Shown here piece after piece: positions 40 to 5,605 of a stretch of DNA of 5,605 bases. Each line of letters begins with the position of its first letter. The first letter of the stretch is position 1. This DNA is from Deltaproteobacteria bacterium (GTDB lineage: Bacteria; Desulfobacterota; Desulfobacteria; Desulfobacterales; ETH-SRB1): positions 1 through 5,605 of the forward strand of contig QMMZ01000168.1 in assembly GCA_003647525.1 (NCBI GenBank). Reading direction: 5' to 3'. A program made the position numbers and the translations under genes. The notes under the pieces were generated by a model. It did no database searches and was not told the DNA's origin. It saw only the letters and a program-made list of their open reading frames with translations.

Positions 40-1992
40 TCATTGGCAATGTAAGCAGAGGGCTTTTTTTTTATAACGAAGTCGCATTCGAAGTAGAAAG
101 TGTAACCCCAAAAAAACAAATATCATGTGGCGGTGCCAAGCTGGCCAGGAACGATGTTCGTAATTCCCCATGCCCAAATATGATTTGCCTTCTTGAAAAC
201 ATTGCTCAATCGGCCATCGCATATTGGATGCCTTTACAAGCTCTTGAAATTTAATCCGCCGTGGCGCATTGGAAATAGCATACTGGATTTGTCCATCTGA
301 ATTTTTTCTCATAAACAACCACCTTTCTTTTCCTTCCGGCAAATTTTTTCGGCTTAAATAAATCCTTACTCTGGCTACTTCCGCTGTGATTGGCCCTTTG
401 GTGCCTTCTGCCAATATAACAGGCATCCAATGCAGTCGATGAGAGTTTGCGATTTCAGATACTTTTCTTGGTTTAGGCTGGCCTGACAAGAGTTTCATTT
501 TCGTTGGGCGGGGACCACGTCCTTTATATTCAGGTAGCCCAATTTTAGGTTTTCGAGTAAACACTTTACTATCAGATCGTATGTGTGCAAAATAATAAAT
601 ATCTTCTGGCAACTCATCCAAAAAGGAACTGTCAGAACCAAAGGTTGCATCACAACCAATCCATTTAGCCTGATAAAGCCCACTTTTTTTGATCTGGTCA
701 ATCAAATCCAGGGCGATTTCCAGTTTGGTCTGGAAACAAAGGTCTTCGGGAACCCAATTTTGTTGGCAGCGTTTTTTATTTGCTTCATCGAACCATTTTT
801 CAGGCATGTACAATTGACCATTTAAAAGGCCATACCCTTTACAACTAGAGTAACCAACAAAAACACCGGATTGACAATTTTCGATTTTGCCCCTTTCCCC
901 ACAATATTGACGGGCAACACCGACAGATTCCTTTCCTTTCTTAACAAACTCACTGCTGTCAAGATTGATCATCCCGTTAGGATCACTGATCTGCTCAGAC
1001 AAGAGTTGTTGATGGGTCATGAGCATTGCCTGATGATTCCATTTGCAATTTTTTAAGAATCGCTGCAATGAACGAACAGATTCTTCTCCTAAAAATTCCA
1101 AGGCTATGGGTTCAACGGATTTAGCTTGTGAATTGCTGATAAGGCCGGATAGATATGTTATTGCTAAACGTCTGTGCTCGATACGCCCATAGCAATCAAA
1201 AAATTGCTCATGAAATTTTATAAGTTCATTTGACATGGTGCGGATGTCATCCTGGGTGAGACTAAGGTCAGATACCAATCCGGGATGCCATTGGCTGTGG
1301 GATAATATCATTTTCAACTCCTCCAGTTTATATTGTGATTGTGGAGGGCTTTGAAAAAAACTAACCATTTTTTGTCTGCAACCGATAATGTCTCTGAATT
1401 TTGATTCTAATGCATAAAGATAAATCTCCTTTGGTTTGCCATGATAAATATAGCTGTTTCCTTTTTTACCACTGCCGTATGTTTGGCCAACATAAGTCCA
1501 GTTAGCGGCTTTGTAGATGGTTCCCTTAAACTTTTCCGGATCTACGAAAGTCTCTAACAACAGCAGCCGTTTCCCAAAATTTTTTCCCCAGTCTTTTTTT
1601 AAACTGCGAACACAACGGGAAAGCACATAAGAGGCTAAATTTTTGATTTGTACCCATGGTACGATTAGAAAGCGGCTGTTACACACCAAACAACTTAAAA
1701 AAATTTTACGTTGAGCATCGGACCATCCAATATAGGCATCCCGTGTTCTCAATTTCAGTGCGGGAGCACTGAATGACAATGCAGCGACTGGTTGATTTTT
1801 TATGAATGCCATATATTTCAGGCGATGTCCTAAAAGTTTCTTGTAACCGAGATAATGGTACCTGCTTACAAGCTGATCCCATGCAGACTCAAATGGTGAA
1901 AGGCTTACCATTCTGATATCAATGGTGAAGGTATCAACAGTACCGTTTATTGGTTTTGTATTTACAGCATGTTTCGATTTGATATCCAGCAT
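40..1992 (-). CDS. DruA-like (DUF4338) / IS701-type DDE transposase fusion protein
   Basis: A 650-residue protein in two parts. Residues about 30-205 match my memory of the DUF4338/DruA family: YHYLGY near 46-50, IGWSDAQR at 88-95, NSRFLIVPWV near 105-114, KNLAS at 117-121, LLETFVDPEKFKGT at 145-158 and ANWTYVGQTYGSGK at 163-176. Residues about 340-640 look like an IS701-type DDE transposase: LDSSEF then KKGKESVGVARQYCG (D345), GCDATFG (D448), and RWPIEQCFQEGKSYLG with the third acid at E597, followed by YEHRSWPAWHRHM. These would catalyse DNA cleavage and strand transfer. IS701 transposases usually have about 400 residues, so the extra length is the N-terminal domain. The frame is unbroken. 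The ATG is preceded by GGAG (plus-strand 2003-2006) with a 10-nt gap, which supports the start. It is divergent from the recombinase operon. DruA is named from the Druantia phage-defence system, but here transposition is the likelier role, with the N-terminal domain perhaps binding DNA (inference). Confidence 0.88.
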   Translation of the reverse strand: MLDIKSKHAVNTKPINGTVDTFTIDIRMVSLSPFESAWDQLVSRYHYLGYKKLLGHRLKYMAFIKNQPVAALSFSAPALKLRTRDAYIGWSDAQRKIFLSCLVCNSRFLIVPWVQIKNLASYVLSRCVRSLKKDWGKNFGKRLLLLETFVDPEKFKGTIYKAANWTYVGQTYGSGKKGNSYIYHGKPKEIYLYALESKFRDIIGCRQKMVSFFQSPPQSQYKLEELKMILSHSQWHPGLVSDLSLTQDDIRTMSNELIKFHEQFFDCYGRIEHRRLAITYLSGLISNSQAKSVEPIALEFLGEESVRSLQRFLKNCKWNHQAMLMTHQQLLSEQISDPNGMINLDSSEFVKKGKESVGVARQYCGERGKIENCQSGVFVGYSSCKGYGLLNGQLYMPEKWFDEANKKRCQQNWVPEDLCFQTKLEIALDLIDQIKKSGLYQAKWIGCDATFGSDSSFLDELPEDIYYFAHIRSDSKVFTRKPKIGLPEYKGRGPRPTKMKLLSGQPKPRKVSEIANSHRLHWMPVILAEGTKGPITAEVARVRIYLSRKNLPEGKERWLFMRKNSDGQIQYAISNAPRRIKFQELVKASNMRWPIEQCFQEGKSYLGMGNYEHRSWPAWHRHMIFVFLGLHFLLRMRLRYKKKALCLHCQ

Positions 1993-2210: not shown

Positions 2211-3452
2211 ATGATTAATCAATTCTTTAAAGATCCAAAAACAATTCTGCGCATGCACGAAGGTCCAATAGGGACCCACATTAACATTTATGCAAAATTT
2301 TTATGTGATCAGGGTTACTCTCGTCAGTCATCCTGTTCCCAGCTTCGCCTGATAGCAAATTTCAGCAAATGGCTTCAACTGCAGAATATTAAAGTTGAAG
2401 ATATCAGCCATAAAATAATTGATAAGTATCTCAAATATAGAAAACAGTTCGTAAAAATAAATCGTGGTGATCAATTTGCTTTAAATAGACTTTTGGATAT
2501 TTTGGATGGACTGGGGATCTCTTGTCGTAAAGTTATAAACAAGGCCAAAAGTGAATACCAACAGGTGGAAGATGATTTCAAAAATTATTTATTTAATGAA
2601 CGTAATCTTGCACCTGCAACCGTTGTAAACTACCTGCCTATTGTGCATAAGTTTCTGTTTGAGCGATTTGGTAATAATCCAATCCGATTTAATAGCTTGC
2701 ATGCCAGAGATATTACCGGATTTATTCTACGCCATGCTTCAAATTACAGCAATAAGCGGGCCCAATTAATGGTGACAGCAATCCGTGGATTTTTAAGATA
2801 TCTGTTACTTCAGAAAAAAATTATTACAGATTTGTCAGCATGCGTGCCTACAGTTCCATGTTGGCAACTATCAACAATACCAAAGTATTTGCAGCCTGAA
2901 CAAGTTCAAACCATATTAAAATATTGTAACAACAGGCAAGCCCCTGTGGGGATTAGAAATTATGCAATACTACTCTTATTGGCACGACTTGGCCTTCGTG
3001 CCTGTGAAGTTATAGCTATAGAATTGGAAGACATAGAATGGGAAACAGGTCACATCAATATACGAGGAAAAGGAGGAGGAAAAGTTCGATTTCCCTTACC
3101 GAAAGATGTCGGTGAAGCTATTGCCGATTATTTGAAAAATGGACGACCACGATGTCTGACACGACATGTTTTTGTTCGTCAGTACGCACCTATTCGAAAA
3201 ATTGGCAATTCCAGTACTATTTCATCAATAGTAAGGCGTGCCATTATACATACAGGGATCAACTCACATCATAAAGGAGCCCATTTATTTCGACACACAC
3301 TAGCTACTCAGATGCTCCGACAAGGTGCCTCGCTTGCTGAAATTGGTGAACTCTTACGGCATCAGAGTCCAAAGACCACGCTTATCTATGCAAAGGTAGA
3401 TATAACAGCATTAAAAATACTTGCACAACCCTGGCCTGGAGGTGACTTATGA
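2211..3452 (+). CDS. ritA: Tyrosine recombinase, first of RIT trio (RitA-like)
   Basis: A 413-residue site-specific recombinase of the tyrosine (phage integrase) family, which breaks and rejoins DNA through a 3'-phosphotyrosyl link. The C-terminal catalytic domain (about 225-400) carries R263 in ARLGLRACEV, the beta-hairpin lysine K287 in RGKGGGK, H358 and R361 in HLFRH, H384 in LLRHQSPKTT and the nucleophile Y393 in LIYAK. Upstream are two helical stretches: residues about 20-80, and a more typical SAM-like core-binding domain at about 120-205 (EDDFKNYLFNERNLAP onward). The protein is thus roughly 80-100 residues longer than a plain XerC/D type, and the extra N-terminal segment may bind DNA or partners. 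The start is supported by AAGGAG 8 nt upstream. The gene overlaps the next by 4 bp. The symbol follows RIT naming and gene order; assignment to the exact subfamily is from position and general look. Confidence 0.9.
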   Translation: MINQFFKDPKTILRMHEGPIGTHINIYAKFLCDQGYSRQSSCSQLRLIANFSKWLQLQNIKVEDISHKIIDKYLKYRKQFVKINRGDQFALNRLLDILDGLGISCRKVINKAKSEYQQVEDDFKNYLFNERNLAPATVVNYLPIVHKFLFERFGNNPIRFNSLHARDITGFILRHASNYSNKRAQLMVTAIRGFLRYLLLQKKIITDLSACVPTVPCWQLSTIPKYLQPEQVQTILKYCNNRQAPVGIRNYAILLLLARLGLRACEVIAIELEDIEWETGHINIRGKGGGKVRFPLPKDVGEAIADYLKNGRPRCLTRHVFVRQYAPIRKIGNSSTISSIVRRAIIHTGINSHHKGAHLFRHTLATQMLRQGASLAEIGELLRHQSPKTTLIYAKVDITALKILAQPWPGGDL

Positions 3453-4381
3453 AAACGCTTCATGACGGTGTGGAAGAATATGTTAATATGCGCCGAGCAC
3501 TGGGGTTTAAATTGGATCGACCAGGCAGATTGCTTTTTGATTTTGTTTCTTTTATGCAAGAGGAAGATGCCTCTCATATCACAACGGAGTTGGCTCTACG
3601 CTGGGCTAAAAAGCCCAAAAGCTGTCAGCCTTCATGGTGGAGCCAACGGCTCTCCTGTGTGAGGGGGTTTGCACAATATTGGAGTGCCATAGATACTCGT
3701 ACAGAGATTCCACCCCTTGATCTTTTACCCAGTCAATATAAACGGCGTCCTCCCTATATCTATACAAATAGAGAAATTAAAAAATTACTTGGTGCGGCAA
3801 AAGATCTCCCGCTTAAATCAGGTATCCGAAGATGGACATACTATACCCTATTCGGACTATTGGTGGTGACTGGGCTTCGAATAAGCGAGGCCATTTCTCT
3901 TAAGTGTGAAGACGTGGATTTAGAAGAGAGTATATTAACAATTCAGGAGAGCAAATTTAAAAAATCCCGTCTGGTCCCTATTCACAAATCAACATGCAAC
4001 AAACTCAAACAGTATGCGCATAAACGGGAACATTTTTATAATAGATATTCTGCCCCTTATTTTTTTATATCTGATAGTGGCCGGCCATTAACTTGTAATA
4101 TTGTTCAGTGGACATTCGTGAAAATTTCACATCAAATTGGATTAAGAGGCCCATCTGACAGTTTTGGACCTCGGATACATGATATGCGCCATCGATTTGC
4201 CGTGACTACACTATTGAATTGGTATCGATCTGGTCTGAATGTAGAACGACACATTCCTACACTTTCAACATATCTTGGTCATGTCAATGTATGCGATACA
4301 TACTGGTACCTGTCTGCCGTACCAGAGTTACTATCCCTGGCTGGGAACCGACTTGAAAAAAGGTGGGAGGCGTTGATATGA
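3449..4381 (+). CDS. ritB: Tyrosine recombinase, second of RIT trio (RitB-like)
   Basis: A 310-residue tyrosine recombinase. The N-terminal helical region (about 1-95, with GFKLDRPGRLLFDFVSFM at 19-36) would be the core-binding domain. The catalytic domain runs from about 105 to 295: R144 in TGLRISEA, probable lysine K169 in ESKFKKSRLVP, H244 and R247 in HDMRHRFA, H278 in TYLGH, and Y287 in DTYWYL, nine residues after H278 as in XerD-type enzymes. The TYWYL form of the tyrosine motif is, to my memory, usual in this branch. Its ATG overlaps the stop of the first gene as ATGA at 3449-3452, and GGAGGTGA lies just upstream inside the first gene, so translation is probably coupled. It likely acts with its two neighbours to move the element; how the three divide the work is not evident from sequence. 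Confidence 0.9.
   Translation: MKTLHDGVEEYVNMRRALGFKLDRPGRLLFDFVSFMQEEDASHITTELALRWAKKPKSCQPSWWSQRLSCVRGFAQYWSAIDTRTEIPPLDLLPSQYKRRPPYIYTNREIKKLLGAAKDLPLKSGIRRWTYYTLFGLLVVTGLRISEAISLKCEDVDLEESILTIQESKFKKSRLVPIHKSTCNKLKQYAHKREHFYNRYSAPYFFISDSGRPLTCNIVQWTFVKISHQIGLRGPSDSFGPRIHDMRHRFAVTTLLNWYRSGLNVERHIPTLSTYLGHVNVCDTYWYLSAVPELLSLAGNRLEKRWEALI
4362..4370 (+). promoter_or_regulatory. Ribosome binding site deciding the start of the third recombinase
   Basis: GGTGGGAGG lies inside the end of the second recombinase gene, 7 nt before the ATG at 4378. An in-frame GTG at 4363 would make a protein 5 residues longer, but it sits inside this Shine-Dalgarno stretch. The ATG also reproduces the ATGA overlap seen at the first junction, so 4378 is the better start. 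Confidence 0.75.
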
Positions 4382-5376
4382 AAACCAACAACATTTTCCC
4401 AGCCCTGCTTGAAACATTTTTTACAGATCGGCTTATAGCTCAAAAATGTGTAAGCCCCAACACTGTTGCTTCGTATCGTGATACTTTCCGATTATTGTTG
4501 CAATTTGCACACAAACGCCTGAAGAAGCAACCATGTTGTTTAACGCTGGATGCCCTGGATGCATCTCTCATTTGTGATTTTCTTGATGATATTGAAAAGA
4601 ATCGCCAAAATGTTGCGCGTAGCCGCAATCTCCGGTTGACAGCAATTCGTTCATTTTTTAAATATGTATCATTTCAGGAACCAAGTTACACAGCACATAT
4701 TCAACGGATTCTATCAATACCAAGTAAAAAACAACAACGAAAACTGATTGCTTTTTTAACACGCCCTGAAATCAATGCGCTATTAGCTGTGCCAGATAAA
4801 AAAACATGGATTGGCCGTCGCGATCATGCTTTTTTAATGCTGGCAATACAGACAGGGCTCCGTCTTTCAGAAATGACAAATCTTAAATGGAAAGATATAG
4901 TTTTAGGCAATGGTGCTCATGCCCGATGCCACGGGAAAGGGCGCAAAGAACGTTGTACACCATTGACAAAACAGACTGTTAAAGTAATGAAAGCTTGGCT
5001 TCGTGAACAAAATGGAAAATCTGAAGACATCACATTCCCAAGCGTACGTAGTGGGCAACTCAGCTCTGATGCTGTTCAGTATCTTGTTTCAAAACATGCT
5101 AAAAATGCAAAATTATTGTGCTCATCCTTAAAAAAGAAACGAGTGTCTCCCCATGTACTTCGCCATACGACAGCAATGGAATTACTTCAGGCAGGTATAG
5201 ACCGCTCGGTTATTGCTCTTTGGCTCGGTCATGAATCTGTGGAAACTACGCAAATTTATTTTGATGCTAATCTTGCCATTAAAGAGGAAATTTTGAGAAA
5301 AACAATGCCAATAAATACAAAACCAGGACGTTACAAAGCAGATGATAAACTGCTGAGTTTTCTAAAAAACCTTTAG
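4378..5376 (+). CDS. ritC: Tyrosine recombinase, third of RIT trio (RitC-like)
   Basis: A 332-residue tyrosine recombinase of XerC/D-like build. The N-terminal SAM-like core-binding domain spans about 8-100 (LLETFFTDRLIAQKCVSPNTVASYRDTF region). The catalytic domain spans about 125-300: R162 in QTGLRLSEM, K187 in CHGKGRKER, H259 and R262 in SPHVLRHTTAMELL, H285 in LWLGHESVETTQ, and Y294 in IYFDA. A roughly 30-residue tail follows the usual C-terminal helix. Of the three it looks closest to standard integrases. It overlaps the second gene by ATGA at 4378-4381 and ends 13 bp before the first repeat of the right-end array, so the operon runs directly into the presumed recombination site. Confidence 0.9.
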   Translation: MKTNNIFPALLETFFTDRLIAQKCVSPNTVASYRDTFRLLLQFAHKRLKKQPCCLTLDALDASLICDFLDDIEKNRQNVARSRNLRLTAIRSFFKYVSFQEPSYTAHIQRILSIPSKKQQRKLIAFLTRPEINALLAVPDKKTWIGRRDHAFLMLAIQTGLRLSEMTNLKWKDIVLGNGAHARCHGKGRKERCTPLTKQTVKVMKAWLREQNGKSEDITFPSVRSGQLSSDAVQYLVSKHAKNAKLLCSSLKKKRVSPHVLRHTTAMELLQAGIDRSVIALWLGHESVETTQIYFDANLAIKEEILRKTMPINTKPGRYKADDKLLSFLKNL

Positions 5377-5389
5377 AGATAACCCTTCA

Positions 5390-5403
5390 GACTATGCCGA
5401 ATG
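5390..5403 (+). repeat. 14-bp inverted repeat, left arm
   Basis: GACTATGCCGAATG; its exact reverse complement is at 5466-5479, 62 bp further on. It contains the 11-bp motif ACTATGCCGAA (5391-5401), the first of five copies in this end region. It is a plausible recombinase binding arm by position and symmetry, not by known site homology. Confidence 0.75.
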
Positions 5404-5465
5404 AATTTTATTATTGTTTGAACAATCTCCTGTGTTTTCATATATATATTTGGCATTTAAAATAA

Positions 5466-5479
5466 CATTCGGCATAGTC
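5466..5479 (-). repeat. 14-bp inverted repeat, right arm
   Basis: CATTCGGCATAGTC, the perfect reverse complement of 5390-5403. The 62-bp spacer between the arms is AT-rich, including a TATATATA run, and has no gene. The pair could form a long-looped hairpin in RNA, but the loop is too long for an ordinary terminator. Confidence 0.75.
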
Positions 5480-5484
5480 CGGGA

Positions 5485-5495
5485 CTCGACATAGT
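5485..5495 (-). repeat. Third motif copy with one mismatch
   Basis: CTCGACATAGT differs at one position from CTCGGCATAGT, the inverted motif found at 5511-5521. It faces the plus-oriented copy at 5500-5510 across a 4-bp gap (GACG), giving the inner inverted repeat CATAGT-GACG-ACTATG at 5490-5505. Confidence 0.6.
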
Positions 5496-5526
5496 GACGA
5501 CTATGCCGAGCTCGGCATAGTCGTCA
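5495..5526. repeat. Perfect 32-bp palindrome at RIT right end
   Basis: Left arm TGACGACTATGCCGAG (5495-5510) is followed without spacer by its exact reverse complement (5511-5526). The arms contain motif copies four and five in head-to-head orientation. RIT elements are described with palindromic or inverted-repeat ends, and this one abuts a broken gene, so it probably marks the right terminus and recombination site (inference). A T-rich run (TTCTTTT, 5527-5533) follows, so it might incidentally act as a terminator for the trio, but that run belongs to the coding sequence of the neighbouring fragment. Confidence 0.85.
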
Positions 5527-5605
5527 TTCTTTTGCCACACATATGCTGGAGAATAATGTCAATATTTACAGGGTGAAAGATCTAATGGGGCATGCTGATA
5601 TTAAA
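5522..5605 (+). pseudogene. 3' fragment of another tyrosine recombinase, cut at box II
   Basis: In this frame the sequence reads RHSFATHMLENN, then VNIYRVKDLMGHADIK, and continues past the window. This is the typical tyrosine recombinase segment from the second catalytic arginine (HxLRH box) to the GH motif that precedes the tyrosine. The reading frame is open back to 5498 but meets a stop at 5495-5497, and codons before 5522 lie in the palindrome and do not resemble an integrase, so the gene has lost its 5' part here. The only in-frame ATG (5543) is inside the conserved motif and is not a plausible start. It is not a copy of any of the three trio proteins; the sequence resembles XerC/D- or integron/IS91-associated-type integrases. 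Most likely this is the target gene the RIT element entered. Confidence 0.8.

Follow-up and report, generated by a model that had tools for sequence, protein, structure and literature searches.

The stretch of DNA analyzed here, which we call the window (5,605 nucleotides), ends in part of a tyrosine recombinase gene that opens at the Arg codon of the HxxR box and lies at the right end of a RIT element. Did the element enter that gene at a preferred site, or does a gene remnant lie beside it by accident? The window holds a RIT element with ritA, ritB and ritC, all on the forward strand. Its ritA (2211..3452) encodes a tyrosine recombinase of 413 aa (Phage_integrase, E = 4.2e-30), ritB (3449..4381) one of 310 aa (7.1e-21) and ritC (4378..5376) one of 332 aa (5.1e-37), each gene overlapping the preceding one by 4 bp; the ritC start was taken as the ATG at 4378, the ORF list having a GTG start at 4363. 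RitA has a Phage_int_SAM_1 core-binding domain at 121-201, and a weak match to SAM_5 at 44-78 (E = 0.089) may mark a second one. The protein cluster of this RitC holds 28 sequences on 3 contigs, the longest of 6480 bases, and the window is probably of metagenomic origin. Between the ritC stop and the RIT terminus there are 93 nt (5377-5469), which leaves no room for a fourth gene of the ginD or srap type. The window has the right terminus alone (5470-5494), and no second, left terminus was found in it, the expected place being taken up by an IS701-like element that occupies its left 2 kb. The DDE transposase gene of this element (40..1992, reverse strand, an ORF of 650 aa; DDE_5, 5.9e-43) scores 286.5 bits against the NF033540 IS701 model (cutoff 150). 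Ahead of its DDE domain we noted a DruA-like N-terminal domain at residues 26-176 (Pfam DruA, 2.2e-34).

The right end of the element has several parts. A 14-bp subterminal inverted repeat, GACTATGCCGAATG at 5390-5403 and CATTCGGCATAGTC at 5466-5479, spans a gap of 62 nt. The terminus itself (5470..5494, forward strand, terminus score 27) consists of an inner arm CGGCATAG (5470-5477), 9 nt and an outer arm CGACATAG (5487-5494), an 8-9-8 layout that the relatives share, CGGCATAG being the commonest arm among them. It is followed by an inner 6-bp crossover, s2 (TGACGA, 5495..5500), whose reverse complement TCGTCA reads as N-Arg-CA, by a 20-bp mini-palindrome CTATGCCGAGCTCGGCATAG made of two back-to-back 8-bp arms (5501..5520), and by an outer 6-bp crossover, s3 (TCGTCA, 5521..5526), which is the N-Arg-CA of the target; both crossovers are read on the forward strand. 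Together s2, the mini-palindrome and s3 form a perfect 32-bp palindrome (5495..5526), and it is perfect because s2 and s3 are reverse complements of each other. The first-pass annotation had taken this palindrome for an arm of the RIT element, and in that it was mistaken, since the palindrome is a separate mini-palindrome between two crossovers and the terminus proper lies at 5470-5494. It was right that the bases CGTCA at the palindrome edge encode the Arg and the start of the His, and these are bases of the second spacer, 5521-5526.

What follows is a 3' fragment of a tyrosine recombinase gene (5522..5605, forward strand) that runs from the HxxR Arg codon to GHADIK. Its 28 residues, RHSFATHMLENNVNIYRVKDLMGHADIK, match Phage_integrase (E = 5.6e-7, profile positions 133-159), XerD (1.9e-8) and the integron integrase model TIGR02249 (2e-7), in agreement with the earlier reading of this frame as a recombinase piece opening at the Arg-His codons of the box. 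The intact homologue that had been proposed as a check was sought in 291 genomes of a single class, the one to which the Desulfobacteraceae MAG with locus L014 belongs, drawn evenly from a larger group, and 279 of them gave matches. The best, L125, is an uninterrupted frame of 333 aa with 93% identity over the 28 residues, and at 324.6 bits against TIGR02249 (cutoff 265) it is a protein of the integron-integrase family. Intact relatives of the fragment thus exist, and what the window carries is the 3' portion of a gene of this kind. We tentatively assign the interrupted gene to the integron-integrase family, a label kept tentative because 28 residues alone are seen; on the fragment itself XerD scores slightly above TIGR02249. 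The window has one junction of its own, the right one, and the 5' half of the broken gene lies outside it.

Relatives were fetched by RitC similarity, and for that reason their flanks are unselected. This gave 108 RIT-like loci: 6 on plasmids (H1-H4, H7 and H12, the records opened among at least 5000 that matched), 80 on genome contigs (the best 80 of 580 confirmed) and 22 on viral contigs. They came from alignment-based scans, while a scan of viral contigs for the exact palindrome and a single-protein scan yielded no relatives. The A-B-C order of the window's three proteins recurs at 93 of the 108, the remainder including cut or partial loci. Nine loci were excluded for having no plus-strand RitC match or a RitC identity below 53%. 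The other 99 were parsed together with the window, and 10 had no readable end (a flank under 36 nt or a weak terminus), so that 90 loci, window included, had at least one readable junction, with 150 ends in total. Some labels were set by hand: L002_R, L051_R, L088_R and L093_L were taken out of the HxxR class and L012_L, L041_R and L045_L put into it, L041_L and L005_L were added to it, and several ends classed as "other" were named by motif or Pfam. L005 is a mix of two elements. The ends of a further nine, more remote RitC matches, all from the Burkholderia sp. OK233 genome, lie outside the analyzed set. We also observed 11 RitC matches in a single genome (G004; L113 and L115-L124), six of them with equal scores and 45% identical to the RitC of the window, and, in Desulfopila, a RIT-sized contig (L013, 3393 bases, coverage 461) that would represent a multi-copy RIT if the other contigs of its assembly have much lower coverage.

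At 79 of the 150 readable ends, in 49 of the 90 loci, the same Arg codon of a tyrosine recombinase HxxR box is broken (77 ends in 47 loci without L005 and the window). After curation these comprise 40 ends with a 5' half and 39 with a 3' half of the target. The element has a short side (terminus, 6 bp, target) and a long side (terminus, s2, the 20-bp mini-palindrome, s3, target), and, when the spacer is used to fix the reading frame, the short sides close on H-x-x-R and the long sides open on R-H. In raw, uncurated counts, which include a few short ends and one long end that are not in tyrosine recombinases, 43 of 85 short ends close on the H..R reading and 33 of 63 long ends open on RH, compared with 107 and 96, respectively, of 23,600 random positions in the relatives' flanks. 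Such readings at the junctions are far beyond chance. Clustering at 85% identity, with 5' and 3' halves kept separate, left 72 groups among the 77 HxxR flanks of sufficient length, and the junctions are therefore not copies of one event. The suggestion that RITs home into tyrosine recombinase genes presupposed a repeated target, and the target is repeated. The accompanying idea, that copies with the same end might occur in unrelated flanks and so speak against it, was borne out in part: the flanks vary and clades with other targets exist, but in 49 loci one gene superfamily is interrupted at one codon. Judged from the sequences, insertion into the HxxR box is genuine and frequent in this part of the family, homing to these codons is well supported, and the element, like many of its relatives, appears to land in the active sites of enzymes that belong to other mobile elements.

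The mini-palindrome is found on none of the 40 ends with a 5' half and, by a regular expression for the layout, on 35 of the 39 with a 3' half, the other four (L012_L, L041_L, L041_R and L045_L) showing a variant or shifted copy by eye. It keeps to the 3' side of the target although the RIT itself lies in either orientation, 14 loci having the 3' half to the left and 9 to the right. The spacers conform to N-Arg-CA in 39 of 40 cases for s1, the spacer of the short side, and in 33 of 35 for s3, in both cases partly by construction because the labels depend on them; this does not hold for s2, whose reverse complement is nonetheless N-Arg-CA in 30 of the 35 long ends and otherwise in 5. The plainest reading of s2 is that it is a spacer retained from a previous insertion into a different recombinase gene.

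The best explanation, which we hold with high confidence, is that the RIT of the window integrated into the HxxR box of a tyrosine recombinase gene by site-specific recombination; the mechanism that we propose for it involves a double attachment site. An excised circle would carry, in order, the right arm, 6 bp, the 20-bp mini-palindrome, 6 bp and the left arm, and its two core sites would be opposite in direction. Either core would recombine with a 6-bp target crossover, N-Arg-CA, within the H-x-x-R-H codons, while the inner crossover would retain the earlier spacer. The exchange would be staggered by 6 bp, as reported for the related GInts (PMC5385486), with the Rit proteins presumably binding the arms. 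Because the crossover is asymmetric, the mini-palindrome would in either orientation of the RIT come to lie beside the 3' half of the target; two inverted cores on a circle, each fitting the target spacer in one sense only, would thus produce the sides that we observed. In one genome the same element occurs at two places (L033 and L036) with the mini-palindromes on opposite sides, which could reflect either separate insertion or flipping in place. L072 opens with the final 5 bases of an arm, followed by 6 bp, the mini-palindrome, 6 bp and a left end, as the double site predicts. A regular expression for the whole double site, with a RIT end on either side, had no match in any locus then in the set, and no circular form, excision or transfer was seen in the sequences.

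The remaining 41 of the 90 loci are off HxxR. Tyrosine recombinases are broken elsewhere, at GHxKL (10 ends in 6 loci) and in the lysine region (3 ends in 2 loci); DUF3489 genes account for 17 ends in 10 loci and IS66 transposases for 11 ends in 6 loci, and there is one locus each for an IS21 IstA-like gene, IstB at the P-loop and an IS3-type integrase core. Outside these named targets are 15 loci: 2 in DUF932 genes, 1 in a Gp88-like gene, 1 in a serine-recombinase-like gene (by motif only) and 11 without assignment, among them L017, even though it is a close sister of the HxxR users L008 and L010. A Pfam search of a single flank from each of ten ends found IS66 (L029), DUF3489 (L088), IstB (L053), rve (L083 and L003), Mu-transpos_C_2 (L085), DUF932 (L002 and L032) and GP88 (L064), with no match on the flank of L086; the remaining target names, including IstA, the P-loop and the serine recombinase, come from recognized motifs. 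In L053 the IstB gene is entered at its apparent P-loop (GVGLG/...GKTHLA, the slash marking the junction), and the clade in DUF3489 genes (L090-L097 and L100 on viral contigs, and L088) mostly cuts at the codon before the His of HS(V/I)RG. Target class is clustered on a quickly built tree of the RitC proteins of 89 loci: it changes 18 times, against a mean of 38.8 after shuffling and with a value as low in none of 200 shuffles. The IS66 and lysine-region groups sit on one branch each and HxxR requires 15 changes, many inner branches of this tree being weak. Target choice is therefore largely inherited, with switching between clades.

Why recombinases should be struck so often is a further question. 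On one account, to which we give slightly less than an even chance, a short DNA motif (CA...T NCGNCA ...GC) is recognized, and recombinases are struck because protein constraint keeps this motif common, with no advantage in attacking them. In the interrupted targets, which alone were considered here, conservation is indeed highest at the bases that encode His, Arg-His and Ala, a related clade uses CA/CAGC in DUF3489 genes, which are not recombinases, and the relatives in DUF932 and Gp88-like genes point the same way. At the level of mechanism, however, recognition of a motif is compatible with integration through a double site, and the several clades at GHxKL, lysine-region, IS66, IS21-like, IstB and IS3-type codons hint at more than one shared motif. 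We lean somewhat toward regarding RITs as parasites of mobile elements, in which the double site of each clade would address conserved, often catalytic, codons of mobile genes, and the inner spacer would record an earlier landing. These codons would be those of the HxxR, GHxKL and lysine regions of tyrosine recombinases, of IS66 and IS21-like genes, of the IstB P-loop, of the IS3-type integrase core and of DUF3489 genes. The target presumably loses its function, and a RIT insertion may in this way silence a rival element; a DNA motif that is conserved by the protein and has many sites in mobile DNA fits the pattern equally well as such silencing.

Alternatively, replication through a hairpin end, as in hairpin telomeres, might have left the palindrome of the window as a fold-back copy that is no part of an attachment site. 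Exact reverse complementarity of the inner and outer spacers would suit this origin, and it is found in 9 of the 35 long ends (the window and 8 others); in the other 26 the two spacers differ, which would not be expected from copying, and the mini-palindrome can depart from the arms beside it, L004 being an example. We rejected a fold-back origin on the unlike spacers and regard it as highly improbable.

In all 23 loci where both halves of a target are available (21 of 21 without two Burkholderia loci), an in-frame recombinase runs across the junction with a profile match that crosses it, the profile being built from the Rit proteins of these loci. Empty sites were sought for the target of L036: 12 plasmid records match its 5' half, and of the five that we opened four are uninterrupted at the junction. 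The best, L151 (Paraburkholderia sp. PGU19 plasmid), is identical at 96 of 100 positions upstream and at 97 of 100 from the spacer downstream, with the spacer GCGGCA as in L036. Measured in the same way, the two Caballeronia sp. NK8 plasmids (L150 and L152) have 94 and 93 identical, and the more distant Hydrogenophaga record (L154) 74 and 80; in L150 and L154 an IS91-family transposase adjoins the target gene. In the fifth record, L153 (Cupriavidus sp. KK10), the gene is broken at the same codon. The check for an empty site, made on this one relative's target, thus found homologues continuous across the junction, which argues against an unrelated deletion at L036. Five further plasmid RITs, three of them from Bradyrhizobium (two sharing one insertion) and one, L157, being the KK10 element of L153, lie in HxxR boxes in two cases and at IS66-like codons, named by motif, in three. 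Least probable of all is that the fragment in the window was cut by a deletion or rearrangement and came to lie beside the RIT end by accident: one flank is visible and the IS701-like element does show rearrangement on the left side, but the junction codon and the spacer layout are those of 48 other loci and the halves join in frame wherever both are seen. The original proposal, that the RIT sits inside another recombinase gene at its catalytic codons, is supported.

The element resembles known RITs, for example ritA1B1C1 and ritA2B2C2 of Cupriavidus metallidurans CH34, which have the same three overlapping tyrosine recombinase genes in the order A-B-C. RitA, RitB and RitC have been described as distinct groups (PMC8138268), and RITs as having a length of about 3.5 kb, with an inverted repeat and palindrome unlike the usual sites (PMC3414803), or terminal repeats of 34 bp (PMC10214605). 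Insertions have been reported in radC and the IS66 tnpA (PMC2864759) and in a Tn6049-like transposase (PMC3414803). Known RITs thus share the inverted repeats with an overlapping palindrome at their ends and the insertions in mobile genes, but the accessible portions of these two papers give no target rule and, apart from a single inverted repeat and palindrome, no repeats that convince as binding sites (PMC2864759, PMC3414803). To this the present analysis adds the end layout, the 6-bp crossover and a codon-exact HxxR targeting. GInts likewise have several tyrosine recombinases in one operon, and are reported to make 6-nt staggered cuts and to take attB bases into the element's site, but they have a fourth gene, ginD, which the RIT of the window lacks, and are described from different targets, for instance the ends of ssb (PMC5385486); the string "palindrom" is absent from the available text of that paper. 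We found no statement that recombinase genes are a RIT target in the literature searched, which was available in part and did not include the main RIT survey (Ricker et al. 2013), and the words sought on RIT targets are absent from the main text of PMC12306157. The priority of the HxxR target rule is thus uncertain.

In the portions of the cited papers available to us, the target choice and end structure of RITs are unsettled, and a codon-exact rule makes the insertions predictable. Such a rule would explain truncated recombinase genes beside RITs, as well as the tangles of disrupted recombinase genes on plasmids, for example in Aromatoleum aromaticum EbN1 and C. necator H16. It also provides a concrete case of mobile elements landing in the recombination enzymes of other mobile elements, other RITs included, and points to natural site-specific recombinases with a defined, widespread coding motif as their landing site. 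Inteins and self-splicing introns that occupy conserved catalytic codons likewise exploit, as a durable target, the codons that a protein family conserves most strongly. A RIT differs from them in carrying its own recombinases, and RITs are not known to splice out, so that the split gene stays split.

In 12 loci (L001, L005, L006, L008, L019, L035, L041, L042, L059, L067, L072 and L080) an HxxR half resembles a RitB or RitC of the set, with an identity of 50% or more across over 60% of the length of the half; the short 3' halves in this group, for example that of L008 (42 residues), are weak cases. Five loci (L001, L015, L025, L065 and L075) have two 5' halves and two (L041 and L080) have two 3' halves, and secondary recombination is therefore needed where halves of the same type lie on both sides. 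In L001 the RIT lies between two 5' halves, both of the RitC type, and a nearby solo mini-palindrome (at about 2666) joins two divergent 3' halves, one of the RitC type and one of the RitB type. The types do not match, so this is not a simple reciprocal pair, and the solo mini-palindrome is possibly a product of recombination between insertions.
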